Positions 1,409 through 24,065 of a DNA stretch of 24,781 bases are shown here, one piece after another. Each line of letters begins with the position of its first letter. The first letter of the stretch is position 1. Where the stretch lies: positions 1,901 through 26,681 of IMG/VR virus record IMGVR_UViG_3300030118_000883; one strand, given 5' to 3'. The notes below the pieces were generated by a model. The model was not told the DNA's origin. It saw nothing but the letters and a program-made list of their open reading frames with translations, and did no database searches. A program made the translations under genes and the position numbers. Source of the DNA: a virus.

Positions 1409-1757
1409 CTGTTGGGAAAGTAACAGATGACATATCTAAATTACCATTTGAATCTAATTTAGGGGAGACACTAGCTGGTAAGTCTCGTAAACTTTGACGA
1501 TATGTTTTCCAATCATCTGAAAGGGTCAAATCAGAGCTAGCCCTCCAATCACAAGCAGTTAATAATTTATCTCTTTCAACCCTTAAAAGTCTCATAGGTT
1601 CTTCATCTGTCAATCTTTTTAACTCAGCATTTATTTCAGCTTCAGTCGGTGCAGTACCACTATCTTGCCATATTAAACCAGAATAATCAGAACCAGACCA
1701 AGACCAAGTTTTACGAGGTTTTAAAATTGATAAAGCTATCTTTTTATCGTAAATCAT
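1398..1757 (-). CDS. Tail (fibre) assembly chaperone, Phage_tail_APC-like, 119 aa
   Basis: Residues 54-94 match the signature of the phage tail assembly chaperone family usually found beside fibre genes: PMRLLRVERDKLL, then DW at 70-71, then YRQSLRDLP at 86-94. The protein ends in VTFPTEPS, as family members typically end in a short WPxxP-like tail. It is small, soluble and without cysteines except C69. The ATG overlaps the TAA of the preceding fibre gene (TAATG), and AGGAG lies about 10 nt upstream inside that gene. It probably folds or trimerises the neighbouring 204- or 389-residue fibre. The N-terminal 50 residues (KTWSWSGSDYSGLIW) are more variable and may recognise the client fibre. Confidence 0.85.
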   Translation of the reverse strand: MIYDKKIALSILKPRKTWSWSGSDYSGLIWQDSGTAPTEAEINAELKRLTDEEPMRLLRVERDKLLTACDWRASSDLTLSDDWKTYRQSLRDLPASVSPKLDSNGNLDMSSVTFPTEPS

Positions 1758-2371
1758 TATCCTTTAATCTCCTGTACAAACATAGTTCCAAATCTACTTG
1801 TATTTCCTGAACCTCCAAAAAGTCTAACCGTTGTACCATCAACACTTCTTAACCCTATTCTATAAACCGTTGAAGATGTTGTGGCTGGAGTGTCAATATA
1901 AACATAAGTTTGAGAATCGTAACTATAAGAACTACTATTACCAGTTTTATAATTACCGCCTAAAGTTTTAGCAATCATATTACTGTCACTCACACTTCCT
2001 CTATATAATGCTGTCTCATATCTTCTGTCCTCATCACCCCAACCACCTACACTTAAATGTGCTATTACTAAGACTCTGCTACTACTAGCACTAGGAATAA
2101 TAGATTTTCCAAACCCTGTATCTTGGAAAGAAGTATTAGATGTATCATATTCAGAAGTTTGTACTACATCTGAAAATTGAGATAAAGCGTTTCCGTCTGT
2201 AACACCTACTGTTGCAAAACTTAAATTGCCAGAACCATCTGTTTTTAATAACTGACCTGCTGATCCATCAGCTTGCGGTAGTTTTAAATTTACATCAGAC
2301 GCAGGGTTAGAACTAGGTGCTGATATTATCACCCCATTACCACCGCTATGTACTAATTTTATCTGGCTCAT
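1757..2371 (-). CDS. Tail fibre protein, 204 aa
   Basis: The N-terminus MSQIKLVHSGGNG resembles that of the next fibre (MSEIKVNS). Residues 28-54 carry the module LKLPQADGSAGQLLKTDGSG followed by NLSF, a common phage-fibre motif that also occurs in degenerate form in the 677-residue fibre (WTLPATDASVSGYVL). Residues about 75-204 are predicted all-beta, with a pattern (SSRVLVIAHLSVGG, ETALYRGS, TVYRIGLRSVDG, FVQEIKG) shared loosely with the end of the 195-residue fibre, so both may end in a related jelly-roll tip. It sits 2 nt after the 103-residue gene and overlaps the chaperone gene by 1 nt. It is probably a short fibre or a tip attached to a longer one. Confidence 0.75.
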   Translation of the reverse strand: MSQIKLVHSGGNGVIISAPSSNPASDVNLKLPQADGSAGQLLKTDGSGNLSFATVGVTDGNALSQFSDVVQTSEYDTSNTSFQDTGFGKSIIPSASSSRVLVIAHLSVGGWGDEDRRYETALYRGSVSDSNMIAKTLGGNYKTGNSSSYSYDSQTYVYIDTPATTSSTVYRIGLRSVDGTTVRLFGGSGNTSRFGTMFVQEIKG

Positions 2372-2384
2372 AATTAGCTAGGTT
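2367..2384 (-). repeat. Fibre-cassette junction repeat, copy 2
   Basis: This is an exact 18-base copy of the sequence at 1391-1408. Here it joins the Pro-Ser-stop end of the 103-residue gene to the start of the 204-residue fibre. The upstream proteins (103 and 119 residues) are not otherwise obviously alike, so identity across the junction is unexpected. Confidence 0.8.
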
Positions 2385-2685
2385 TTGGGTTAGCGTCTTT
2401 AACCGCTTTATTGTGGATAGCAAAACTACCAGTTGCATCTAGTTTACCTGCAATAATATCGTCATACAACATAGCCATTTGCTCTCCAGTTGGTGCGTAA
2501 GCTGTTGAACCACTAAATGTTCTTTTATCTTTATATTCAACTTTTGCGTATTCTGCATCTATATCTGATTGAACAATAGAAACTTCTACACCATCTTTAT
2601 CATAAGCTTTAAAAACTCCATCTATTTCTGAAACTGATACAGCATCAGCATACAAGTTACAAATAATTTGGTGTTTATCAATCAT
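2374..2685 (-). CDS. Small tail-fibre partner protein, 103 aa
   Basis: The gene starts in an ATGA overlap with the upstream 195-residue fibre. The C-terminal half (TAYAPTGEQMAMLYDDIIAG, then AVKDANPKPS) resembles a motif of the form YPPxGDQLDxLYHDI...IKAVKDxxPKP, found in small proteins encoded beside fibre genes in many phages. The N-terminal half (MIDKHQIICNLYADAVSVSE...) is variable. There is no signal peptide or membrane helix. Its position as the small second gene of a fibre cassette suggests a fibre-folding or attachment partner, but the biochemical role is not established and I infer it from context. Confidence 0.7.
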   Translation of the reverse strand: MIDKHQIICNLYADAVSVSEIDGVFKAYDKDGVEVSIVQSDIDAEYAKVEYKDKRTFSGSTAYAPTGEQMAMLYDDIIAGKLDATGSFAIHNKAVKDANPKPS

Positions 2686-3269
2686 GTTGTTGCGACCTCA
2701 AAAACTGAAAAAGTTGTCTTAGTGTAATTACCACTTGATGTTCGTCCTAAGTGTGCATTTGAATCTGAGTTTGTAGTTCTTAAATATATTTTATAACTTA
2801 ATGCGTCTGTTGTATTGTGGTCATCTTCATGCGTTAAACAGAAAGGTGACATTGTATTATTATCACCTGCGTCACCATGAAAAGAAATCATACCTGCTGC
2901 ACTATTTCCGTCTGTTCTTAAATTTGCGTAAGAACCACTACCAACCTTTCTATATAAAGTAACTTGAACTCCTCTATTATTACTACCATTAAAAATAGTA
3001 CTCGATATTGTTAAGAACATAAGTGATGTCGCAACAGTTGGAGTTATATCCAGAGAGGGCATATTAGGCAAAGCTACAAAACTATCGCTATTTGTGCTGT
3101 TATCTCCATATAAACTTACTGACTTAAATTGCAAAATAGCTCCTGCTCCTCTTTTAGCTGCTGTAACAGCATTAGCAGCAAGCATATCGGTATCAACAAT
3201 ACCGTCTGGTAGTCCTCCTACCGCTACTCCGCTTATAACATTTGTCGTTCCATTAAATACTAAAGCCAT
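2682..3269 (-). CDS. Tail fibre protein, 195 aa
   Basis: Residues 1-43 (MALVFNGTTNVISGVAVGGL, then DGIVDTDMLAANAVTAAK) match a recurrent N-terminal module of marine phage fibres. The rest is beta-rich, with segments LMFLTISSTIF, GVQVTLYRKVGSGSY, LSYKIYLRTTNSD and TTFSVFEVATT, suggesting a jelly-roll tip related in layout to the 204-residue fibre. A strong ribosome binding site lies just upstream and overlaps the stop of the 677-residue fibre gene, so this gene may be made at a higher level than its neighbours. The stop overlaps the start of the 103-residue partner gene. The identity as a fibre is firm; its place on the virion is unknown. Confidence 0.78.
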   Translation of the reverse strand: MALVFNGTTNVISGVAVGGLPDGIVDTDMLAANAVTAAKRGAGAILQFKSVSLYGDNSTNSDSFVALPNMPSLDITPTVATSLMFLTISSTIFNGSNNRGVQVTLYRKVGSGSYANLRTDGNSAAGMISFHGDAGDNNTMSPFCLTHEDDHNTTDALSYKIYLRTTNSDSNAHLGRTSSGNYTKTTFSVFEVATT

Positions 3270-3274
3270 AATTT

Positions 3275-3282
3275 ACCTCCTA
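3275..3282 (-). promoter_or_regulatory. Strong ribosome binding site for the 195-aa fibre
   Basis: The coding strand reads TAGGAGGTAAATTATGGC: an AGGAGGT Shine-Dalgarno five bases before the ATG. Its first TAG is the stop codon of the upstream 677-residue fibre, so termination and initiation share the site. Confidence 0.85.
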
Positions 3283-5313
3283 TAACACAACATAACGTGA
3301 ACCTGATGGAATGGTAACTGTTACTCCATTAGCTACTGTAATAATTCCAACACTAAATCCTGATTTGTTTGTAGTCATTGTGTAATTATTTGAAATTGTT
3401 AGCGAGTTTTCTGTAACGCAACCATCCGCTTTCTGTGATGAAACTCCTGTCAAGGCAGATCCATCAATAGCTGGTAACGCTCCAGTAAGAGCAGAAGAGG
3501 GTAAGTTGGTTAAACTTGCACCCGATCCACTAAATATAGTCGCAGCAAGTAATCCTGTAGCAGCATTAAAGGTAAGATTTGATCCTGATTTAAGTGCCAA
3601 GTCTCCTGTTGCAGCAGTAGCAAATAAGGGAAAACAGGTGGTATCAGAACTCTCATCAGCAATCGTTGATGTACTTGCATTTCCAACCGCTATCTGAGTT
3701 CCCATATTGACAATGAAATATGTAGAACCGCTAGGAGGAGCAGAATCAAAAATAATGTCAGTACCACTTACAACATATCCATCTGTCATATTGCCTTGCC
3801 CAGTACCATCATTAGGTTGTTGCATGACACCATTGATTGAGACTCGTAAGATCTCTGCATTTACAGGTGTTACTGCTGTACTTGTTCCCTTCGTGACAAG
3901 CTTGAATCTATAAGCAGTACCATTAAAGGTTGCAGATCCTCCACCAGTTCCAGAAGATGATGCAATATCTAATAAATCAGCACTTCCTGTACCGCCAGTA
4001 GAACCTCCAATCTCTCCCCATGAACTACCATCATATCCTTCAAATTCTGATGTCTGACTATTAAATCTGAGCATACCAGCAGAGGGAGAGCCAGGTCTTT
4101 GAGCAGTCGTACCAGCAGCAATATCAATAGCTCCTGTACCTGTCATCGATATATTTCCACTAACAGTCAAACTTGCTAATGTTCCGATGTTGGCAGTAGA
4201 AGAATTTGTCTGAACAGAATTACCCATTAAAGAATGAGAACTACATTGATAATGCAGAACCATCGGAGTGTTATCTACTATCGCAATTTGTGTATAAGCA
4301 CCACTAGAACCTGGTGTTCCATTTGTGGTTACGTTAGTTGTGTAAGCAGTTGTTTTATCTGACTCAAGATAAAAACGAAGAGGATGTCCACTATTACTGC
4401 TATGCGATTGATCGAATTTATATGTTCTACCTGGTGTAAGAGTTATAAATGGTGATTCTTTTCCATCTATGACATAACCACTACTAGATCCACTTCCGTT
4501 ATATCTATGTGCTGCTGTTTTACTCGCAACTGTTACTGTGAAAGTTTTAACCGATCCAGTATAAGTAGCATGAAGAGAAGCAAAACCTCTGATATTACCG
4601 TCATCAGTAAGAGTTAAAGTTCCTGTAAAATTAGGATCTGCATTTTGACCTGGAGCGACCCACGATAAAACTCCACTTGCATTACTGGACAACACATATC
4701 CACTTACACTCGCATCTGTAGCTGGTAATGTCCAAATTAAATTAGATGCAACTGTAGCTGGAGATTTGAAACCTACATAATGAGAAGAGTCATTATCTAA
4801 ATATCTAAATTCTTTTTGACCAGAAACAGAGATATGCTCACTACTTGTCCAAGAATCTGTAGAGTTTACCCAGTTAAATGTTTTATCTGTAGCTCCTTTA
4901 AGAGTTAAACCACCTCCATCAGCAGTTGTATCAGAAGGAGTACTAACTTTTCCAAGCGTAATATTTTTATCTTCAACATCAAGGTTAGTAGTATTTATGG
5001 TTGTAGTCGTTCCATTAACAGTAAGATCACCAGGAATGTTGACAAGACCAGCAGAATTTATAGTCATTCGACCAACCCCTGCTGTACTGAAAGTCAAAGT
5101 ATCAGAGCCACCACTAATTCCTGAATCATTATCCGAGTTAAAACTAAAGGATGGAACAGCAGCCGATCCATCAGGTGCTTTACTTAATAAATTTGAATAT
5201 GCAATCTTTTTGTTTTTATCAGCACCAGTAGCACTTTGATCTATTATTGGAAGCGTATCTGTAGCTGCTGGAGCAGTTAAGGCGGTAAATTCTGATATTT
5301 TGCGGTTTGTCAT
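3280..5313 (-). CDS. Large multidomain tail fibre with cupredoxin-like insert, 677 aa
   Basis: Modules in order: an N-terminal leader TNRKISEFTAL (1-25); the LTVNGTTTTINTTNLDVEDK block (97-116), a motif I recall from cyanophage virion proteins; a WTLPATDASVSGYVLSSNAS module (194-213); a cupredoxin-like domain at about 256-368 with His310, Cys357, His360 and Met363; the GTTAQRP...FEGYDGSSWGEI module (401-435), also present in the next fibre gene upstream; a beta domain with RVSINGVMQQPNDG (490-503); and a C-terminal SGSGASLTNLP...GSALTGV repeat-like segment (595-624). The stop lies inside the ribosome binding site of the 195-residue fibre gene. No clear Shine-Dalgarno precedes it; it starts 2 nt after the previous stop. 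It is probably a main side or tip fibre. Confidence 0.82.
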   Translation of the reverse strand: MTNRKISEFTALTAPAATDTLPIIDQSATGADKNKKIAYSNLLSKAPDGSAAVPSFSFNSDNDSGISGGSDTLTFSTAGVGRMTINSAGLVNIPGDLTVNGTTTTINTTNLDVEDKNITLGKVSTPSDTTADGGGLTLKGATDKTFNWVNSTDSWTSSEHISVSGQKEFRYLDNDSSHYVGFKSPATVASNLIWTLPATDASVSGYVLSSNASGVLSWVAPGQNADPNFTGTLTLTDDGNIRGFASLHATYTGSVKTFTVTVASKTAAHRYNGSGSSSGYVIDGKESPFITLTPGRTYKFDQSHSSNSGHPLRFYLESDKTTAYTTNVTTNGTPGSSGAYTQIAIVDNTPMVLHYQCSSHSLMGNSVQTNSSTANIGTLASLTVSGNISMTGTGAIDIAAGTTAQRPGSPSAGMLRFNSQTSEFEGYDGSSWGEIGGSTGGTGSADLLDIASSSGTGGGSATFNGTAYRFKLVTKGTSTAVTPVNAEILRVSINGVMQQPNDGTGQGNMTDGYVVSGTDIIFDSAPPSGSTYFIVNMGTQIAVGNASTSTIADESSDTTCFPLFATAATGDLALKSGSNLTFNAATGLLAATIFSGSGASLTNLPSSALTGALPAIDGSALTGVSSQKADGCVTENSLTISNNYTMTTNKSGFSVGIITVANGVTVTIPSGSRYVVL

Positions 5314-9587: not shown

Positions 9588-10204
9588 ACTTCCACCTGTT
9601 CATTTTCAATATTTGCTGAGACAGTTATTGATCCAGTTATAACACGACCATAATGTATAGGTACTGCAACGCCAGCTCTTGAAGTGTTTTGAATACCACT
9701 AAAATTAAAAGACTTTCTTGGATCTTGACTATCTTCTGGGACAGGTGGTGTAGGTGTAAGCATTTGATCTATACCACTCAAAATCATTGAAGCACCCATA
9801 GCAGATACCATAGTTCCCATCTTTGTAAAAAATCCTCCCGTGACAGCAGGCCCTGCTCCAAATAAACCAGTATGTCCAAACATCCCTGCACCAGGAAACA
9901 TAAAGCTTGCTCCTATTAATATTGCACCAAATAATATTTGTCTTCCTGATGCCCCTCCCGCACCAGTAATAACAGGAACTATCTTTATATCGCTTTGTCC
10001 AGTTGGATAATGTAATTCTTTTTCCTCTAACTCCCAATCATTAATTATTACCTTGTAATACTTATCAGACATATATTTTTCAACAGTAGGAAAATTAGTG
10101 ACTAAAAATCTTACTGCTTGTGCAGCATTATTAACTTCTGCTTCAAAGGTTCTTTGACCTAGAAACTTCGCAAGTTCTCCGTATAGCTTAATTTTCCGTA
10201 GCAT
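9584..10204 (-). CDS. I: Tail tip assembly protein I, 206 aa
   Basis: The protein matches lambda gpI in size (about 220) and layout: an N-terminal ubiquitin-like beta-grasp part (MLRKIKLYGELAKFLGQRTF, then AAQAVRFLVTNFP), a central Gly/Ala/Met/Phe-rich hydrophobic stretch at about 81-147 (ITGAGGASGRQILFGAILIG), and the conserved end GIQNTSRAGVAVPIHYGRVI followed by TGSITVSANIE. Between them is a Pro-rich linker (TPTPPVPEDSQDP). gpI acts with K, L and J to build the tip and is probably not retained, or only in small amounts, in the virion. The start overlaps the end of K by 17 nt, and the stop overlaps the ATG of J. Confidence 0.92.
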   Translation of the reverse strand: MLRKIKLYGELAKFLGQRTFEAEVNNAAQAVRFLVTNFPTVEKYMSDKYYKVIINDWELEEKELHYPTGQSDIKIVPVITGAGGASGRQILFGAILIGASFMFPGAGMFGHTGLFGAGPAVTGGFFTKMGTMVSAMGASMILSGIDQMLTPTPPVPEDSQDPRKSFNFSGIQNTSRAGVAVPIHYGRVITGSITVSANIENEQVEV

Positions 10205-10895
10205 AACGAATCCTTTTACCTGTGCATTTTAGCAACCATTCATCTAATAAATCACGACTTGATAATCTATTTTGCAAATGATGTAAAACGGTCTGCTCTC
10301 CTAAGTAAACACCAATATGGTTTAATCCGCTACTGCATATTGACATTAATAATAAATCACCTTTTTCTAACTCTTCGTCTTGTAATAATTCTCTAAAACC
10401 TGTTTCCTCATAACATCCATTAAACATTGGATTTTTAAGAAAATCATTGTGGTCATTTGGTCTTTCCCAATCTCTTAGTTTTATCCCAAGTTCTTGATCG
10501 TACCAATCACGACATAAACTCCAACAATCAGTTAAACCAAAAACCCATTTTCTTCCTATCAACGGTGCTTTATATCCGCATGGTTCAAATGATGTCCACT
10601 TATTAAGATTTGGTTGTACAATCCACCATTTAATTCCTGATTTTTCGCAAGCTATTTTATCTGCTTGACTTGGTTCTGGACTTGTTACAGGATGGCTATG
10701 AATTATAGCAGTTATTTCTCCTTGATCTTCGGCATTAGCGTAATCATGTGGATCTAAAATAAATTGATCTGTAGGATCAGGAGCTATATTTTTACATGGA
10801 AAATATACCTCTTTTCCTTTTTTTATTAGTAATAAACCACAAGATTCTTTAGGATCAGATTCTTGTGCGTGTTTTAATGCGAGTTCTTGCCACAT
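10188..10895 (-). CDS. K: Tail tip assembly protein K, JAMM + NlpC/P60 peptidase, 235 aa
   Basis: Two catalytic domains are visible. Residues 1-110 are a JAB/JAMM metallopeptidase-like fold with a full zinc motif: Glu17 and HSHP-x6-S-x2-D (His66, His68, Ser76, Asp79). Residues 118-235 are an NlpC/P60 domain with Cys124 (LTDCWSLCRDWY), His193 (LNHIGVYLGE) and His205/206 (VLHHL). This is the domain order of lambda gpK, which acts in tip assembly; the NlpC/P60 half is thought to cut peptidoglycan or process a tail protein. The start overlaps the stop of L (TAATG). Because all key residues are intact in both halves, both activities are expected, although the substrate is unproven. Confidence 0.94.
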   Translation of the reverse strand: MWQELALKHAQESDPKESCGLLLIKKGKEVYFPCKNIAPDPTDQFILDPHDYANAEDQGEITAIIHSHPVTSPEPSQADKIACEKSGIKWWIVQPNLNKWTSFEPCGYKAPLIGRKWVFGLTDCWSLCRDWYDQELGIKLRDWERPNDHNDFLKNPMFNGCYEETGFRELLQDEELEKGDLLLMSICSSGLNHIGVYLGEQTVLHHLQNRLSSRDLLDEWLLKCTGKRIRYATEN

Positions 10896-11868: not shown

Positions 11869-14132
11869 TAACCTAATAAACCTCCAGGTCGTTTTTGTCT
11901 TATAAGCTCTGCTTGTATAGCAGCACCAAGAATGTTTCCAAGTTCTTGAGATTGATTGGTGTCACCTTCAACAGAAGAACCTGACGCATCTACATTTACA
12001 GTTATATTACCAATATTTCCACCTGATGCTTCTACTCCAAGTTTCCCATCTCTACCTCTACGTAAAGGCATGATTGCTTCAACCCCCTGCTCGCCTGCAA
12101 GTGCTGCACCATTAGCGAGAGGAAATAATTGAGGACGAGTAATTAGACCCCCTTTTGCATAGGGTACAATTTTATTTTTAGGAATAACACCACCATCTGC
12201 AAATTTAAAAGGATTTTTGATAAATGGTGTACGAGAAAAATCGATATCGCCTGTTGGTAAATTTAACCCACCACCAAAAGGTAAAAATGAACTTAGATTA
12301 TTTTTAGGAGCAGGATTAAATAAATTTCCAAACATTCCTGTTAGTGGTTGAATTATTTGTGATCTAATTATTATTCTTGTAATATCTGCAATTATTGACT
12401 TTGCTAATTTTCTAAAATTTAATGTTCCTTGTAAAACAAATTCAACAAGTGCATCTTCCATTTTTTTGAATGTACTTACAAAAGAATTAGCTATATCTTG
12501 ATTAACTTGTTTTACGGATTCTCTATATTTATCTAAAATATCTCTTGCTTTTTTTGTATCATCTGTTGCTGCTTGAGAAACAGGATCTTCAAAAACATTT
12601 CCTCCATCTCCCTCTTGTGCAAAAGGATTATTAAACCCTTCTAAATTAAAACGACTACCACTAGCATTAAAAGAACTTGTATCTATATTGAAATTTGATG
12701 GATTTTTTGTAATATTTACAAAATCTTCCATAGCTTTATTTCGACTTTCTAAAAGTTTAATTTCATCTTGAATTAATTTTAATTCTTCTTTCTTTCTTTT
12801 TACGATATCTGCAAACGGCTCACCTGTAGCTCCAACCATACCTGTATCTAATTCAAATTGAAGTTGCAATGCTTGTTTTTTTAGGTTATCTAGTCTAAAT
12901 TCATCTCCAATTTTGAAAAATTCTTTCATCTTTTCAATAATGTTATTAAATACATTTATAGTATCGGTTGCGAATTGTTGTAATGAAGAACCAATAGGCT
13001 GCAAGAAATCACCAAAATTTTTCTTTAATTCATCTAATGCAACTCGCATCCTCTGACCTGCATCTGCTGTTGAAGCCGCCATAGCCTTTGCAGCTTCAGA
13101 ATGATCTTCACTTAACCTTACAACAAATTTCATTACATCATTTAAACCAACAGTTCCATCTCTCAAGTCTTTTTGCAATTGAGGTAATGTTCTTCCTGTC
13201 GCAGCAGCAAATTTTGTAACAGCTCCAGGGAGTCTCTCGCCCAGCTGACCCTGCAGCTCTTCTGCCGATACTTTGCCTTTACCAAAAATCTGCGACATCG
13301 CTCGAATAGCAGATTTCACATCTTCTGCATCTCCACCTGTTGCTTTGATTGCTTCAGAAACACCTCTAAAAACTTTTTCTGCTTCATCAACAGATCCTCC
13401 CGCACCTACAACTGATGCTGTTAAAGTTGTAAATTGTTGAGTTGCAGCAGCTATTGGAACATTTAATTCTCTAGAAACTGATTTAATAACCTTTTGAGCT
13501 TTATTAAATTCACTTTGAGATTTTGTTACTCCTTTTAAAGCAACTTCAAGTCTTTTTATTTGAGCAGAATATTCTGCGGCTTCTTTTGCTGAAGAAGCTA
13601 AAGCTCCTACCGCTACTACTCCAGCACCAATACCAGCACCAACAAGTCCACCTGCTAATACACTTCCTCCCGCTTGAGCAGCACCAGCAGCACCAGCACT
13701 GGCTAATCCAGCTATTGCAGGAGGTATTCCTAATGAACTTCCAATATATGCACCAACACCTCCGATAGCTGCTGCCCCACCAGCACCTAACCCAGCAAAC
13801 ATTCCTTTGCTTTTTTTACCTGTTTGATTAAAAGCTTGTAATTTTGCTCTATTTTCATCTATTGCTTTTCCTAACTTTTTAAATTGAGAACCACCAATTT
13901 TTACTTCATCTCTTAGTGCTTTTAATGTTCTTTCTTTTTGTTTAAATTGATTTATACTTTTTGGGACAACAGCGATTGTTTCTTTAATACCTTTATTTAA
14001 ATTTTTTATTCCTACTTCATTTAATGGCTTAAATGCTTTTGATAGTTGTTTTAATGAACGTGTTAAAGTCGTTAAATCTTCTAAACCTGTAACATCAAAA
14101 TTTAAAGTAACTTCTCCAGTTTTTCCTGCCAT
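11868..14132 (-). CDS. H: Tape measure protein (gpH-like), 754 aa
   Basis: Residues 20-105 are a Lys-rich helical N-terminus. Residues about 112-182 are Gly/Ala-rich and hydrophobic. Residues about 185-385 carry the conserved tape-measure N-domain (QIKRLEVALKGVTKSQSEFN, FGKGKVSAEELQGQLGERLP, LDELKKNFGDFLQPIGSSLQ). Residues about 395-470 are helical and Lys/Glu-rich. Near 555-615 lies the lambda-type C-terminal domain (FVSTFKKMEDALVEF, IIADITRIIIRSQIIQPLTG), then the end with FADGGVIP, AKGGLITRPQLF and GEQGVEAIMPLRRG. It sets tail length; using the roughly 0.15 nm per residue seen in siphoviruses, I infer a tail near 110 nm. A strong Shine-Dalgarno and a TAATG overlap precede it. Confidence 0.94.
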   Translation of the reverse strand: MAGKTGEVTLNFDVTGLEDLTTLTRSLKQLSKAFKPLNEVGIKNLNKGIKETIAVVPKSINQFKQKERTLKALRDEVKIGGSQFKKLGKAIDENRAKLQAFNQTGKKSKGMFAGLGAGGAAAIGGVGAYIGSSLGIPPAIAGLASAGAAGAAQAGGSVLAGGLVGAGIGAGVVAVGALASSAKEAAEYSAQIKRLEVALKGVTKSQSEFNKAQKVIKSVSRELNVPIAAATQQFTTLTASVVGAGGSVDEAEKVFRGVSEAIKATGGDAEDVKSAIRAMSQIFGKGKVSAEELQGQLGERLPGAVTKFAAATGRTLPQLQKDLRDGTVGLNDVMKFVVRLSEDHSEAAKAMAASTADAGQRMRVALDELKKNFGDFLQPIGSSLQQFATDTINVFNNIIEKMKEFFKIGDEFRLDNLKKQALQLQFELDTGMVGATGEPFADIVKRKKEELKLIQDEIKLLESRNKAMEDFVNITKNPSNFNIDTSSFNASGSRFNLEGFNNPFAQEGDGGNVFEDPVSQAATDDTKKARDILDKYRESVKQVNQDIANSFVSTFKKMEDALVEFVLQGTLNFRKLAKSIIADITRIIIRSQIIQPLTGMFGNLFNPAPKNNLSSFLPFGGGLNLPTGDIDFSRTPFIKNPFKFADGGVIPKNKIVPYAKGGLITRPQLFPLANGAALAGEQGVEAIMPLRRGRDGKLGVEASGGNIGNITVNVDASGSSVEGDTNQSQELGNILGAAIQAELIRQKRPGGLLG

Positions 14133-14802
14133 TATTTTTTCTCCTTATTAATCTCTACGAGAGCTACAGATTCCATAAGTTGTATGCCCTCTAGCATTTC
14201 TTGACGGTTTTCTACATTGTAAAGGTCAAATAGTCCACCAGCAAGCAGTAAGACCTCATATTTTAAACCTACCATACCTCCAAAAGAACAATCCCATTGT
14301 GTATTCATTCTTAAAAACATCATAACAATTTCCCAATTATCATCAATTACTTCAAATTCATCCCTTGATTCTAGTTGCTTCTCTATCTGAATACCAAATA
14401 CTTCTGCATCTTTAGCGGTATCATCTATAACTTGTTTGCTGCCCGAAGCCCAATATAAAGCAGCATCAGTTAGTTTTTTACTTGTGCATTACTATAAAAA
14501 TCTCTAAAACCATCTAATACACCCGCTACAAAATCTGTATCTTCAGCAAATTCTTTTAATATTGCTTGTGAAAATTGTATAGGTGTCCCATCTTCTTCAT
14601 TTACATCTTCCCAACCTACTAAAACTTTTTGCAAAGCATCATACTCAGTTGCTTCCTCAAAGTTATTAAGTTCAGACCTTGATAAACGATTAAACTTAGC
14701 AGTAAATGTTGTTGTTTCAAACTCGCCTACTTTTGTTGTAGATGGTGTTTGTACTTTTACAGGCCAAGAATAAACCTTAGTTTTTTTTCTTACAAAAGCC
14801 AT
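14132..14802 (-). CDS. GT: Tail assembly chaperone gpG-T, made by -1 ribosomal frameshift (223 aa)
   Basis: The T part has no start of its own. Shifting -1 at the A-AAA-AAC heptamer (14473-14479) joins gpG to an open frame from 14473 to 14132: LTDAALYWASGSKQVIDDTA..., through MMFLRMNTQWDCSFGG, to the end VEINKEKK. The joined product is 110 + 113 = 223 residues. In lambda the same arrangement gives gpG and gpGT, which bind the tape measure and tail tube during assembly, with T contacting tube subunits. The T domain here has predicted helices and LLLAGGLFDLYNVENRQEML. The stop overlaps the tape-measure ATG (TAATG). The only in-frame ATG start, at 14323, would miss 50 residues of open frame that reads as protein, so I treat that shorter frame as the T end. 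Confidence 0.88.
14141..14146 (-). promoter_or_regulatory. Ribosome binding site of the tape measure gene
   Basis: The coding strand shows AAGGAG followed by AAAAAATA and ATG: a Shine-Dalgarno eight bases upstream, lying inside the end of the T frame. Confidence 0.8.
14437..14479 (-). promoter_or_regulatory. Programmed -1 frameshift signal (slippery heptamer plus stem)
   Basis: The zero-frame codons GTA AAA AAC TAA contain the heptamer A AAA AAC at 14473-14479, immediately before the gpG stop. Seven bases further (14472-14466), TGCTGC (14465-14460) can pair with GCAGCA (14442-14437) over a 17-base loop, giving a 6-bp stem. Heptamer, short spacer and downstream stem are the three usual parts of a -1 signal. 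The heptamer and frame are seen directly; the stem's role is inferred. Confidence 0.82.
14470..14802 (-). CDS. G: Tail assembly chaperone gpG, 110 aa
   Basis: This is the zero-frame product, starting MAFVRKKTKVYSWPVKVQTP and ending NAQVKN at the TAA next to the slippery site. It sits between tail tube and tape measure, as in lambda, where G (140 residues) is made in excess over GT. The N-terminus is beta-like and Lys-rich (TTTFTAKFNRLSRSELNNFE); the C-terminal half is helical and acidic (ILKEFAEDTDFVAGVLDGFR). The assignment rests on position, size, the frameshift and this charge pattern. No clear Shine-Dalgarno precedes the ATG; the 60 bases upstream (14803-14862) are AT-rich and hold no gene. 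Confidence 0.87.
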   Translation of the reverse strand: MAFVRKKTKVYSWPVKVQTPSTTKVGEFETTTFTAKFNRLSRSELNNFEEATEYDALQKVLVGWEDVNEEDGTPIQFSQAILKEFAEDTDFVAGVLDGFRDFYSNAQVKN

Positions 14803-17292: not shown

Positions 17293-20040
17293 TTATGTGC
17301 CGAAGCAGAATGCAGTTGGTTGCTTGATAGCAAAGTCAACATCTTGCAATGCAACAATTTTGACTGTGCCGCTACCCGCTTTTGTGATTGTATCTACTGT
17401 AAGATCTAAACCACTCCACATACCAATACAGAACTGGCTGAAGTCACCGAATAGTGCATCGTTGTTAACGAGTTGATTTGAAACAATAACTGGGTAGCCA
17501 TTGATTTCATTGTTCTCAAAAACAAACTTACCTGTGTTTGAAGCAACTTCTGTACTCTTCAATGCACCTCTTGCAGAAGCATTAATGATGTAGAACATAT
17601 TTGCTACATCTGCGTTTGCAGCAGCTACATCAGTTTCCATTCCGATGTACTCAGCGAATGTACCAAATGTAGTAATTGTTTGTGTGCCAACACCAGTTGT
17701 ATCTTTGATACCTAATGGTTGGTTTGAAGAACCTGTACCGTAGATAGCTGCATTGTCTAACTTAGTAGCAATTACACGAGCTATATCATCTCTAATCATA
17801 CTTTCAACATCAATAGATGATTGAAGTAATAATCTTCTTGTAAATTCAACCACTCCACCAACAGTTTTTGGTGTCATGTTCACTTGGTCGAAGGCTTGCT
17901 GTGATTCTGTAGGCTCAGATCCTTCTCCAACGAAAAACCCTGTTGCTGTCTGAGTCATTCTAGGGATCGCAATGTTACCAGAAAGTCCTGTAAGCATTGT
18001 TGGGTTTGCAGCCATAACAGCCATTCTCTTACGAAGAATGTCTATAAAAGAACCAGAAAGTAATTCTGTTGGAACTAAGTTACCACCCGCAGTTGCAGTA
18101 CCTACATTCAAGTCTCTTTGTAAAACTTCGTTAGGAACTAAAATTCCATTTGCAGGTTTGTCATAACGCTTAGATGCCTCGTCTGAAACTTCTCTTTCAA
18201 ATGCAGCAGCCTCTTGTGCTGATCTGTCATTAGGGTTTGCTAAAGCATTTAATGCTCTTAAGAAGGAAAACTTCTTAACTTCTTTTGGTTCTAAACCAAC
18301 TTCATTAGTTGTCATGTCTGTTGAACGAATTGGGGTATTGTTTGCCTCTGCCTTGTTTTTAACAAGATCGAGGATTGCTGCTCTTGATTCAACAATAGAT
18401 TTGTTGCTTTTAATAAGAGTCTCAGCTATCTCTTCTGCTCCATACTCTCCGAACTCACGACATAATGAAGTGATAGATGCTGTACGAGCATTGTTTTCAT
18501 CAATAGCACGTTGTACTTCGGCTTTGATGTCGATTTCAACGGATTTCTCCGTATCAACCGCAGTTTCTTTAGTTGATTCTTCCATGTTACGAACTTTGGG
18601 TGATGCGGAATCCTCCGCAGAGATAATCTCCTCGACTGGAGATTTACTTTCTATATTAATACTATTACCTTGAGAGGGGTCAATTAAACTTCTTCCGAAA
18701 CCAATTGTAGGATCTGCTGGAACAGTAACAACTGATAGTTCATGTACCGACCAAGAACGAGCTAGCATTCCATCTTCTGTCTCATCAATATCATTAATAG
18801 AATATCCAAAACTTATACCTCGAATAATTCCATCTTTTACATCTTCTAAAATTTCAGATGCAAACTTACTTCTTGAGAAACGAATCTTTGCATAACCTCT
18901 TTTGTCTTCACCAATATATGCAGATTCAACTACACCTATTGGTTTATCCATATTGTGGTTGAACAAAACCGCACCGCCATCATTAAGTCTTGAAAGATCA
19001 GCAGCACCACTTTCATGGCTGAGAATTTCGTTACCGAAATAACGCTTTACTGGATATTCTGACGAAAAAGGAAACTCAAATGTTCTTGATTTCACATTTT
19101 TGAAATCAGTAACTTCTTTTCTTTCCAATTTGTCATTAACATCTATTGATCTGATAGCTGCAATTTTAGTTAAGGCACTAAATCTATGACCAGCATAGAT
19201 ATCAGTCTCCTCACCATTTCTGTAGACCTGTATCAGGGCAGCAGGGTCATCAGCAGTACCATTAATTACAAAAGAACTACTAGGAACATCAATTTGACCA
19301 TCCCTAACAATTCTTGTAATTTTACCTCTAGCAGTACCACCACTAGCATTCCAGCGAACAAAATCGCCAGTCTTTAAAGCATCTGGTGCTGCTCTGTTGT
19401 CTTCAATAGTTTTTTGAGCCATAGTTTTTTCGTTAGTAGCTGGTTCAAATTTAATGGGATCAAATTCATTTCTCTCAAGCCAGGATCTAGCTTCAGAGGC
19501 AGAATAATCGGATAATCTGAACCTAATAGATTGAAGTTCAGCACCCTCCTCATTATCCTTTATACCAAATATAAAGTCTATGCCTTGTGAGGCTTCATTA
19601 TTAGACCGCCTAAATGTATCATATTGTTCTGAATTTGTAATAGTCGCTGCGTGTTCATTTGGATATGGTCTTGCAAGTTCTATTGGTTCTGCTCTTTCTC
19701 TAGCTTTTTTTATGGCAGCAGCTTTTCCTCTACTCCAACTGAAGCCTGCATCACCTCCCCAAGCAGCCCATGCGACCCTACCTTTTGACGGATATCCCTT
19801 TTCTCCAGGGCTGAAACCTTCTGCTTTCTTGTCAACCTCATGCCTACTGAAAAAACTAAACATACGCAAGGTAACATCTGCTGAAAGTTCTGAGCCACTT
19901 AGTATTTGAGTCGCTCTTACTGCTGCCACTTGCGTACCACCTGCCCTACCTTCTTTTTTCCAATCTTTATATCTTTGTGCTTCTGTCTTCATCCCATCTG
20001 TAGGTTTGAGATTAATCTCAGTTCCGCTTACATTTGCCAT
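17293..20040 (-). CDS. Prohead protease-major capsid protein fusion polyprotein (HK97-type), 915 aa
   Basis: Modules: residues 20-115, a helical module with RHEVDKKAEGFSPGEKGYPS and WAAWGGDAG; 121-200, RPYPNEHAATI ... FRLSDYSASEARSWLERNEF; about 217-295, a Tudor/SH3-like beta module (LKTGDFVRWNASGGTARGKI); 318-450, an HK97-type prohead serine protease with His362 (FNHNMDKPIG), Ser410 (IRGISFGYSI) and the HELSVVTVPADP motif (433-444); 451-575, an acidic linker and coiled-coil delta-like region; 576-915, the HK97-fold capsid protein (TAGGNLVPTELL, FVGEGSEP, PKTVGGVVEFTRRLL, SSNQPLGI, FENNEINGYPVIVSN). HK97 itself uses two separate genes. Maturation would need cleavage between protease and shell, probably between about 570 and 650. 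Residue assignment is by motif only; the third catalytic residue is uncertain. Confidence 0.92.
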   Translation of the reverse strand: MANVSGTEINLKPTDGMKTEAQRYKDWKKEGRAGGTQVAAVRATQILSGSELSADVTLRMFSFFSRHEVDKKAEGFSPGEKGYPSKGRVAWAAWGGDAGFSWSRGKAAAIKKARERAEPIELARPYPNEHAATITNSEQYDTFRRSNNEASQGIDFIFGIKDNEEGAELQSIRFRLSDYSASEARSWLERNEFDPIKFEPATNEKTMAQKTIEDNRAAPDALKTGDFVRWNASGGTARGKITRIVRDGQIDVPSSSFVINGTADDPAALIQVYRNGEETDIYAGHRFSALTKIAAIRSIDVNDKLERKEVTDFKNVKSRTFEFPFSSEYPVKRYFGNEILSHESGAADLSRLNDGGAVLFNHNMDKPIGVVESAYIGEDKRGYAKIRFSRSKFASEILEDVKDGIIRGISFGYSINDIDETEDGMLARSWSVHELSVVTVPADPTIGFGRSLIDPSQGNSINIESKSPVEEIISAEDSASPKVRNMEESTKETAVDTEKSVEIDIKAEVQRAIDENNARTASITSLCREFGEYGAEEIAETLIKSNKSIVESRAAILDLVKNKAEANNTPIRSTDMTTNEVGLEPKEVKKFSFLRALNALANPNDRSAQEAAAFEREVSDEASKRYDKPANGILVPNEVLQRDLNVGTATAGGNLVPTELLSGSFIDILRKRMAVMAANPTMLTGLSGNIAIPRMTQTATGFFVGEGSEPTESQQAFDQVNMTPKTVGGVVEFTRRLLLQSSIDVESMIRDDIARVIATKLDNAAIYGTGSSNQPLGIKDTTGVGTQTITTFGTFAEYIGMETDVAAANADVANMFYIINASARGALKSTEVASNTGKFVFENNEINGYPVIVSNQLVNNDALFGDFSQFCIGMWSGLDLTVDTITKAGSGTVKIVALQDVDFAIKQPTAFCFGT
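18604..18644 (-). other. Tandem inverted repeats in the protease-capsid linker
   Basis: On the coding strand AATCTCC AGTCGA GGAGATT (18644-18625, 7-bp stem) is followed five bases later by TGCGGA GGAT TCCGCA (18619-18604, 6-bp stem). They lie in codons 466-479 of the polyprotein, just after the protease domain and 18 bases before an in-frame ATG (Met486, 18585). Both repeats are seen directly; any role in translation is conjecture. Confidence 0.6.
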
Positions 20041-22193: not shown

Positions 22194-24065
22194 TTACCAA
22201 TTTGCGACAAAATTCGACTTATTAGTCGACTTAGTACGATCTAATGATAGCTTACTATCCTTTTTAGGTTCGTCAGGATTTAATCTTTTTTCTAACTGAT
22301 CAAATATTGTTCTTCTGTCATATTTTTGTAGTAATCTTTGCCATGCAGCATATGCATATACAAATTCATCTAATGCCTCATTACGAGCGTCACTTTTTTT
22401 AACCCATACTCTTTCTTGATAGCCATGTTTATATCTAAGTACTTGTCTTTCTGCTGTTAATTCTTGAAAATAATCATTTGTAATTGTTGGATAAAAATGT
22501 ATATACCCTTCTCCAGGTTCTGCATCTTTTAATCGGTTATGTAATGTTGATTTTATTACATCAACTCCAACAGGAAACAACTGCACACCTCTTTTTAAAG
22601 CTTTACCAGAAAAATTTATATCTACTTTGCTAGGTCTTCCTATTGGTGGTTTACCTTTTTGTCCCATTCCTTTTATACCTATCAAACCTAGTTGACCTCT
22701 TTCTCGAACATATTGATAAACTTCTTGAGTAAAGTGTCCACCTGTATCTATAGCTGCACTATCAATTTTCATTTTTTTTCCTTCTTCATTTAAATATTCA
22801 CTCATAAGCACCTCATCCATCTGTTTCCAAAGATCTGCTCTCGCTGGACTACCATAAATAACTTTTCTATCTATTAAATACATTTCTTCATTACGTCCTA
22901 TACCCCATAAACTCATAGAAAGCCTATCGTCTTGCACATCGCATCCTAGACACAAACTGAGAACTGTTTTAGGAGGTATACCTTGCTTGTAAGTTTCAGC
23001 ACCTGCTCTTTCCATTAATCCATCAGCACTAACTTTAGATGCTGCTGATTCTTCCCAAACTTCTCCAAGAATAGTATTTATCCACGTTTTTAATTGTTCG
23101 GGATCATCTTTACTCTGTAAAAACTCCTCAACTAAATTAGACCAACTTGCATTTGGTGAATATGAATACGCTGCCCATATATGAAATCCTAAATGCTTTG
23201 GATTACCAGGTGCTGTAGCTCGCCATTCTCCTCTTTCAACCATCCATCTTTTTTTAGTATGTGGTATTAAACATCCACAACTTTCACAAGCGTATGCAAC
23301 AGTATCAGGATCATTATCTCTCCATTTCATATTAGGCCATTTTAAATACTGCATATGATTGCATTCCGGACATGGAACGTAATAACGCATCTGACAAGTC
23401 TGTAAAAACATTTTCTCTATACGAGAAAAATCTTTAATAGTTGGTGTTGAGCCTGCTACTATTTTTCGATTCCAATAATATTCTGTTCTTCTAATACCAA
23501 GCTTTATCTGATCTCCTTCTGTTCCAGCAGATGCAGGGTAACCATCAACCTCATCAAATAAAACTATTCGTCTACTTACCCTACGAAATCCCCTTGCACT
23601 ATTAGCTCCTACTAAAGATAATGTACCTCCTGGGAAATTTTTCTGTAATAATGTATTGTTGCCATCCTTAGATTTAGGATCACTTACTAAACCATGCAAA
23701 CATGGAGTATCTCGCAGCATAGGTTGAATTTCTTCTTTAGAGTAAGACTGACAATCATCTAAAGTAGGCTGACAAACCATTATTGGACATGGATCTTGAT
23801 GAATATGATATGCAATTAAATGATTTAAAATTTTTGAATATCCAACCCTTGCAGATTTCATTAAAGTTACTTGCTCTACGTCTGGATTAGTAATTGCATC
23901 CATAATTCCTTTCTGGTAGGGCAAAGTTCTCCATCTACCACCTTCAGCAGAACTTTCAGCAGATAAATAAGCATAATTATCAGCCCATTCACTTAAACTG
24001 AGTTTTTTAGGCGGTTTAAAAGCTAAATATGCTTTTTTTTCTAGTTTTGCGAGGTTATTTATCAT
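22194..24065 (-). CDS. terL: Terminase large subunit (gpA-type packaging ATPase/nuclease), 623 aa
   Basis: ATPase half: Walker A-like KSARVGYSK (70-78), Walker B IVLFDE (167-172), coupling motif AGSTPT (204-209). A zinc-binding pair follows: CPEC (232-235) and CESC (260-263), as in lambda gpA. Nuclease half: GCDVQDDRL with Asp376, AAIDTGGHF with Asp440, and DARNEALDEFVYAYAAW with Asp566 as likely metal ligands. Length (lambda gpA 641) fits. The protein cuts concatemeric DNA and pumps it into the prohead, together with the small subunit just upstream and the portal. The GpA family is usually linked to cos cutting, though headful phages also have it. A 36-nt repeat-containing spacer separates it from TerS. 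Confidence 0.96.
   Translation of the reverse strand: MINNLAKLEKKAYLAFKPPKKLSLSEWADNYAYLSAESSAEGGRWRTLPYQKGIMDAITNPDVEQVTLMKSARVGYSKILNHLIAYHIHQDPCPIMVCQPTLDDCQSYSKEEIQPMLRDTPCLHGLVSDPKSKDGNNTLLQKNFPGGTLSLVGANSARGFRRVSRRIVLFDEVDGYPASAGTEGDQIKLGIRRTEYYWNRKIVAGSTPTIKDFSRIEKMFLQTCQMRYYVPCPECNHMQYLKWPNMKWRDNDPDTVAYACESCGCLIPHTKKRWMVERGEWRATAPGNPKHLGFHIWAAYSYSPNASWSNLVEEFLQSKDDPEQLKTWINTILGEVWEESAASKVSADGLMERAGAETYKQGIPPKTVLSLCLGCDVQDDRLSMSLWGIGRNEEMYLIDRKVIYGSPARADLWKQMDEVLMSEYLNEEGKKMKIDSAAIDTGGHFTQEVYQYVRERGQLGLIGIKGMGQKGKPPIGRPSKVDINFSGKALKRGVQLFPVGVDVIKSTLHNRLKDAEPGEGYIHFYPTITNDYFQELTAERQVLRYKHGYQERVWVKKSDARNEALDEFVYAYAAWQRLLQKYDRRTIFDQLEKRLNPDEPKKDSKLSLDRTKSTNKSNFVANW

Follow-up and report, generated by a model that had tools for sequence, protein, structure and literature searches.

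A fused prohead protease and major capsid gene of a tailed phage with an apparent second in-frame start before its delta-capsid part

If a prohead protease and a major capsid protein are encoded by one reading frame, does every shell subunit bring a protease into the head? Fused genes of this kind are annotated as a single 'major capsid protein' in many phages; on that reading, each head would contain the protease in hundreds of copies. The question arises here for a 915-codon gene of a marine phage in the window (the whole analysed stretch of 24,781 nucleotides, part of a 26.7-kb IMG/VR virus record). Based on sequence comparisons, we consider it probable, at roughly three chances in four, that this gene has two in-frame starts, giving a 915-aa fusion and a 430-aa delta-capsid protein. 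The fusion and its N-terminal modules belong to what is already known, and the apparent second in-frame start is the new point.

The gene (Table 1) lies on the minus strand, which the initial annotation did not give; the plus strand of the same interval contains many stops. Its ATG is 2 nt past the stop of the portal gene and lacks a Shine-Dalgarno sequence (-0.8 kcal/mol), and its stop codon ends at 17293. The genes run from the terminase small and large subunits through a connector-like gene, a lambda-type portal and the fusion to head-completion and tail genes. The unbroken 915-codon frame described by the initial annotation stands, and it recurs in relatives: a single-frame fusion was seen in 56 complete relatives in a first count and in 352 loci, not deduplicated, in a later one. 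The dN/dS values of 0.08-0.17 indicate purifying selection on all segments of the gene. Since the frame recurs in relatives under purifying selection, a chance ORF or an assembly error is excluded.

Table 1. Features of the fusion gene in the window and the evidence for each.
Feature	Residues	Position	Strand	Basis
Fusion gene, protease-delta-capsid with three N-terminal modules	915 aa	17293..20040	(-)	single ORF
Module A, helical, 'WGGDAG'	1-118	19687..20040	(-)	PHROG 2859 over 13-117, E 6e-30
Module B, beta-alpha, 'NEH...WLERNEF'	~125-206	19423..19668	(-)	pLDDT ~90
Module T, Tudor/SH3-like	220-295	19156..19383	(-)	Pfam Hva1_TUDOR
S78 prohead protease	314-450	18691..19101	(-)	Pfam Peptidase_S78
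Protease residues	H362, S410, E434	18955-18957, 18811-18813, 18739-18741	(-)	invariant in relatives
Disordered linker	442-505	18526..18717	(-)	pLDDT <50
Delta-like helical domain	505-640	18121..18528	(-)	helices in predicted model
HK97-fold shell	652-915	17296..18087	(-)	Phage_capsid; PDB 8gta
Proposed internal in-frame start ATG, protease/delta boundary	M486	18583..18585	(-)	conserved Met and synonymous minimum
Proposed nested delta-capsid, 430 aa	486-915	17293..18585	(-)	inferred; comparable to HK97 gp5
Conserved RNA structure around inner ATG		18433..18622	(-)	RNAalifold consensus, shuffles
Hairpins; longer stem		~18604-18619 and ~18539-18552; ~18498-18529	(-)	
Zone expected to contain maturation cleavage (approximate)	~626-652	18085..18165	(-)	R4C model start

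Three Pfam families were matched in the order Hva1_TUDOR (225-278, E 3e-6), Peptidase_S78 (354-444, 2e-11) and Phage_capsid (652-914, 6e-42). The scores of Hva1_TUDOR (27.6 bits, gathering cut-off 24.1) and Peptidase_S78 (44.5 bits, cut-off 21) place these segments within their families, and residues 314-914 belong to PHROG 617, 'major head protein' (E 3e-157, profile positions 21-621 of 626). The NCBIfam model NF045541, built for prohead protease/major capsid fusions, aligned only at 315-580 with 151.8 bits against a curated cut-off of 525; the protein is of that model's kind but lies outside the curated family. H362, S410 and E434, the last of which we take to be the third catalytic residue of the S78 triad, are unchanged in 225 of 225 relatives. 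The best fold match of the shell is PDB 8gta (Foldseek E 4e-19; sequence match E 8e-53), with the HK97 and D3 shells also matched, and this fold match together with the Phage_capsid match identifies it as an HK97-fold major capsid protein. In the predicted full-length model (mean pLDDT 70) the delta helices span 505-529, 535-544 and 549-565. The N-terminal 312 residues modelled alone form three confident units with a mean pLDDT of 87, mostly at least 95 in module A. Pfam, PHROG and the structure model thus agree with the initial annotation on three modules followed by protease, delta and capsid in one frame, and Pfam and the invariance among relatives support its HK97-type protease with His362 and Ser410. 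Its remark that fusions occur in some phages is also correct, given PHROG 617, the NCBIfam models and phage R4C.

Among the N-terminal modules, only T has a recognisable fold, Tudor/SH3-like, with weak matches to Tudor, CAP-Gly and chromo domains in the PDB fold search; Hva1_TUDOR was matched in 42 of 50 members. Module B gave a weak BRX-like Pfam match in six of 50. The PDB fold search with residues 1-312 returned nothing at E<=0.001, so that no solved relative was found for modules A and B, and a PDB sequence search using the N-terminal profile gave no significant match.

The initial annotation singled out the approximately 300 residues in front of the protease as the unusual part. This did not hold, as cyanophages and roseophages, along with hundreds of contigs of marine origin, carry the same modules before the fusion, and they also precede stand-alone proteases elsewhere. 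In GenBank, nine phage records match at least 80% of the protein, including S-CBS1, S-CBS3, CRP-811, CRP-821, CRP-822, CRP-823 and CRP-831. In IMG/VR, at least 599 stretches match the N-terminal peptide patterns, and at least 598 relatives of the N-terminal part were confirmed. The Synechococcus phages S-CBS1 and S-CBS3 and the Roseobacter phages CRP-811, CRP-821 and CRP-406 carry the same fusion with these modules, preceded by a lambda-type portal, and it is annotated there solely as 'major capsid protein'. In contrast to the A-B-T set of the window, S-CBS1 and S-CBS3 lack T, CRP-811 lacks B, and CRP-406 has A only. The sets found among relatives are A-B-T, A-B, A-T and A alone, in proportions biased by a sampling that began from the window; A comes first in nearly all, and B is optional.

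Module A also precedes S78 in the stand-alone protease of phiPsal1, accompanies an XkdF-type protease in phage DC31 of Limnohabitans, and is found in a DUF2213-matching protein of a Vibrio phage, upstream of the capsid gene, and in a phage DSL-LC01 protein whose annotation is capsid maturation protease. It occurs in many phage proteases and portals, and structural neighbours from the viral library are for the most part portals, prohead proteases and XkdF-like proteins. Modules A and T are accordingly accessory parts that recur in head assembly proteins. The proposed rarity of the N-terminal modules is therefore rejected, the modules being common and shuffled among relatives, and neither they nor the fusion is rare.

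Several relatives show further peculiarities. In CRP-823 (1486-4414) the annotation has two overlapping ORFs in place of the one fusion, module A being apparently separated from the rest, which reflects either a natural split or a sequencing error. In IMGVR_UViG_3300030207_001508 (L052) the frame breaks within module B, leaving A with part of B on one side and the rest on the other, probably by an assembly error. One relative, L006, is identical to the window in A, S78 and shell (100% each), and has 88% identity in B, 78% in T and 89% in delta; such sharp differences between gene segments, also seen in L030 and L053, point to intragenic recombination between modules. In S-CBS3 and S-CBS1 a major tropism determinant (mtd) is annotated shortly downstream of the capsid fusion.

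The proposed inner start lies in the linker between protease and delta. After three more scans of IMG/VR our set comprised 228 unique fusions in 27 clusters at <70% identity. A Met is present in the linker before delta in all 228 fusions and all 27 clusters, and M486 itself is invariant in 38 near relatives. In a first set of 27 diverse fusions all had a linker Met, and the linker sequence itself was unconserved. With a background Met frequency of 0.75% in linkers, the chance of a Met in 27 linkers would be 1e-5 under independence, a value to be read loosely because the lineages are related. In 16 of the 27 clusters the linker ATG has a Shine-Dalgarno core upstream, at -15 to -4, compared with 53 of 447 (12%) other in-frame ATGs (Fisher p 3e-8, with only approximate independence, since the clusters are related lineages); a comparison of Shine-Dalgarno energies using the last linker Met was marginal (p 0.04). 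Examples of the Shine-Dalgarno sequence with the linker ATG are cggaggacgcaATG in R4C, aaggagaacactATG in CRP-811 and tggaggatgttactATG in CRP-406. The linker Met of R4C is M189, beginning MSDPIQ, and that of RcCronus is M190, beginning MSDTTT. The signal is strong in R4C, CRP-811, CRP-821, CRP-406 and VP882, moderate in ep3, Arya, PT1, Persinger and RcCronus, and absent or weak in the window, S-CBS1, S-CBS3, S-LBS1 and several other clusters. Across clusters, the combination expected of a nested in-frame gene of the lambda C/Nu3 kind, an ATG within the protease gene with conserved initiation signals, is present; the window taken alone has the inner ATG and the constraint described below, without a Shine-Dalgarno sequence. 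In the window lineage and the cyanophages, initiation at this ATG would therefore need another route. Another in-frame candidate, M576 (STD[M]TTNEV), was rejected, having neither a Shine-Dalgarno sequence nor a synonymous minimum.

Synonymous variation in the window group (38 close relatives) collapses over codons 474-530, with its minimum at codon 487, adjoining ATG 486. The minimum observed/expected ratio is 0.09, compared with a 5th percentile of 0.39 and a lowest value of 0.17 in 2000 shuffles; this statistic is a pairwise measure, and the permutation ignores autocorrelation. The depressed region of about 50 codons is broader than a start site requires. First and second codon positions vary normally over codons 486-500, which argues against a sweep, and a recent sweep or recombination is rejected for these codons. 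Over codons 501-530 diversity is low at all codon positions, and a sweep or recombination could account for part of the wider patch. The long antisense ORF 18314-18673 was rejected as the source of the constraint, because it shares its wobble positions with the main frame.

We also scanned the S78-delta-capsid frame (about 600 codons) in the five clusters that have 13 or more members. In four of them (n=77, 69, 24 and 13) the global minimum is at the linker Met, the minimum windows starting at codons 175, 188, 172 and 202 with the Met at 176, 188, 175 and 202, respectively. In the fifth, that of CRP-811 (n=13), it occupies the 15 codons just upstream (164-178, Met at 181). By a rough estimate that assumes a uniform distribution over about 600 codons, a minimum would fall within 20 codons of the Met by chance in about 7% of cases per cluster. 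Control genes of the same genomes had their lowest windows at 0.70 (portal), 0.57 (tail tube, at the start of the gene), 0.69 and 0.53 (two small genes). A comparable drop, to 0.11, was limited to terL, at its overlap with the next gene start, and thus serves as a positive control. In the window this dip at the terL 3' end is at about 22194-22250 (-), over the overlap with the TTG start of the next gene at 22210.

The constrained junction is also structured at the RNA level in the window lineage. The RNAalifold consensus of the window group has 48 pairs, two of them with compensatory changes, where covariation was assessed by pair counts against shuffles. In one hairpin the closing pair changes from A-U to C-G in nine sequences, the encoded residues changing too. 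By codon-shuffle folding, the most structured segment of the window is just after M486 (z -4.6), and a second cluster (L042) has strong structure at the inner ATG (z -4.3); the same procedure detected none there in R4C and CRP-811, which have a Shine-Dalgarno sequence. In this comparison, strong RNA structure at the inner ATG was confined to lineages that lack a Shine-Dalgarno sequence there. We infer that the Shine-Dalgarno sequence and the structured RNA may be two routes to the same inner start.

The patch could instead be an RNA or DNA element with another purpose, such as mRNA stability, a regulatory RNA, or a recombination or packaging signal, in a gene with a single start whose one polyprotein gives a true 1:1 ratio. 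The frame is indeed unbroken in all relatives, and in the window lineage the patch is wide, structured and without Shine-Dalgarno sequence; it matches no known RNA family, an Rfam search of the window having given no match. However, the in-frame ATG before delta is the constrained spot across lineages whose patch sequences differ, and in many of them it has a canonical Shine-Dalgarno sequence. Since R4C and CRP-811 have no RNA structure at this ATG, the common factor is the ATG and not a shared RNA element, and we regard the single-start explanation as unlikely. Still less probable is that the ATG is a relict of a separate capsid gene from before the fusion, at which initiation has been lost. 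Unfused relatives do exist, phiPsal1 having module A in its protease gene and the capsid, with its propeptide, in a gene of its own, but among proteins 35-97% identical a relict ATG would neither stay unchanged while synonymous change is depressed nor retain a Shine-Dalgarno sequence in so many clusters. An overlapping gene in the +1 frame over codons 474-545, which is open over most of the stretch in the sequences inspected and would fit the conservation of main-frame third positions where first positions vary, hardly deserves consideration, because no ATG opens that frame at the conserved spot, its end varies among relatives, the in-frame ATG position is common to other lineages, and in the second hairpin the changes at first positions (A-U to C-G) are explained by RNA pairing.

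If, as we favour, the gene has two in-frame starts, the first ATG would give the 915-aa chain of about 100 kDa with modules A, B and T, the S78 protease, the linker, delta and capsid, and the inner ATG would give a 430-aa delta-capsid of about 46 kDa equivalent to the separate gp5 of HK97. Most likely, judging from these signals, the fusion is the minority product and delta-capsid the majority. As delta and shell domains are common to both, the two forms would be able to co-assemble, and the long form would bring a limited amount of protease and the A-B-T modules into the prohead, in a proportion governed by how often translation begins at each start. Cleavage near residues 626-652, presumably self-cleavage by the protease, would then strip off delta, protease and modules, so that about 270-290 residues remain as the shell. 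The initial annotation had stated that the fusion fixes protease and capsid at 1:1, with internal initiation named as an exception; the conserved internal-initiation signals at the protease/delta boundary suggest an excess of protease-free delta-capsid, and a fixed 1:1 ratio is probably wrong.

Phage R4C, which infects Dinoroseobacter shibae, provides evidence on maturation. The 629-aa product of vBDshSR4C_006 (gp6, PHROG 617) is homologous to the window protein over 314-914, with the same protease and delta and the same order of S78, Met-containing linker, delta and HK97 shell; unlike the window protein, it lacks modules A, B and T, and its linker ATG has a strong Shine-Dalgarno sequence whereas that of the window has none. 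PDB 8gta is the R4C shell, and its 268-residue sequence corresponds to residues 362-629 of this product, beginning at the residue aligned with G652 of the window. In the published structure, 415 capsid copies are assigned to vBDshSR4C_006 and a protease is not mentioned (PMC10276861). As the 629-aa fusion gives a virion shell model of 362-629 only, the mature shell has probably lost everything ahead of about residue 650, and the suggestion of the initial annotation that the N-terminal parts are cut away gains support to that extent. The evidence for cleavage in R4C is strong but indirect, because the deposited chain may begin at the first ordered residue.

Protease, scaffold or delta, and capsid are likewise joined in one gene, according to excerpts of the respective papers, in Pseudomonas phage MD8 (gp5; PMC8508860), the Arthrobacter phages Circum, Gordon and Maggie and Rhodococcus phage RRH1 (PMC5513430), and the RcC phages of R. 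capsulatus (PMC8601537). These excerpts make no mention of an internal start for the fusions, and we found no report of one in a protease-capsid fusion in the open-licence literature. MD8 differs from the window in its ClpP-type protease and Mu gpT-like capsid. In the unrelated fusion of RRH1, an ATG with a Shine-Dalgarno core before the delta region leaves a 388-aa product, and MD8 has candidate internal ATGs with Shine-Dalgarno sequences; each is a single case. A precedent is lambda C/Nu3, where the 3' part of the protease gene also encodes a short in-frame product, so that protease and assembly protein are made in unequal amounts. There the nested product is a scaffold and the capsid gene is separate, whereas here it would be scaffold plus capsid. 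The C/Nu3 overlap is credited to Shaw and Murialdo 1980, cited in PMC8508860.

A conserved nested start, if real, would resolve the stoichiometry puzzle of the fused genes and change their annotation, and would explain how a single frame is kept without overloading the prohead with protease and three extra domains. It would also be a phage parallel to the Gag/Gag-Pol strategy of retroviruses, in which a minority protease-bearing form has its assembly domain in common with the majority Gag. Gag-Pol is produced by C-terminal frameshift or readthrough, whereas the phage protease is N-terminal and its proportion would depend on two starts; the likeness is one of function, without homology. We think it somewhat more probable than the opposite that the window represents a widespread class of tailed phages with Gag/Gag-Pol-like heads, made from one gene with two starts, the inner one used through a Shine-Dalgarno sequence or, as in the window, through structured RNA that lacks one.

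Two features were noticed among the tail genes of the window. A slippery heptamer, A AAA AAC, lies at 14473-14479 (-), just before the stop of a 110-aa ORF (14470-14802), and the -1 frame after it continues to 14132 (ORF 14132-14323), as in a tail chaperone frameshift of the lambda G/GT type. In addition, the tail gene at 10188-10895 (-) resembles lambda gpK to the eye, with an apparent JAB/MPN metalloprotease motif ahead of an NlpC/P60-like part.
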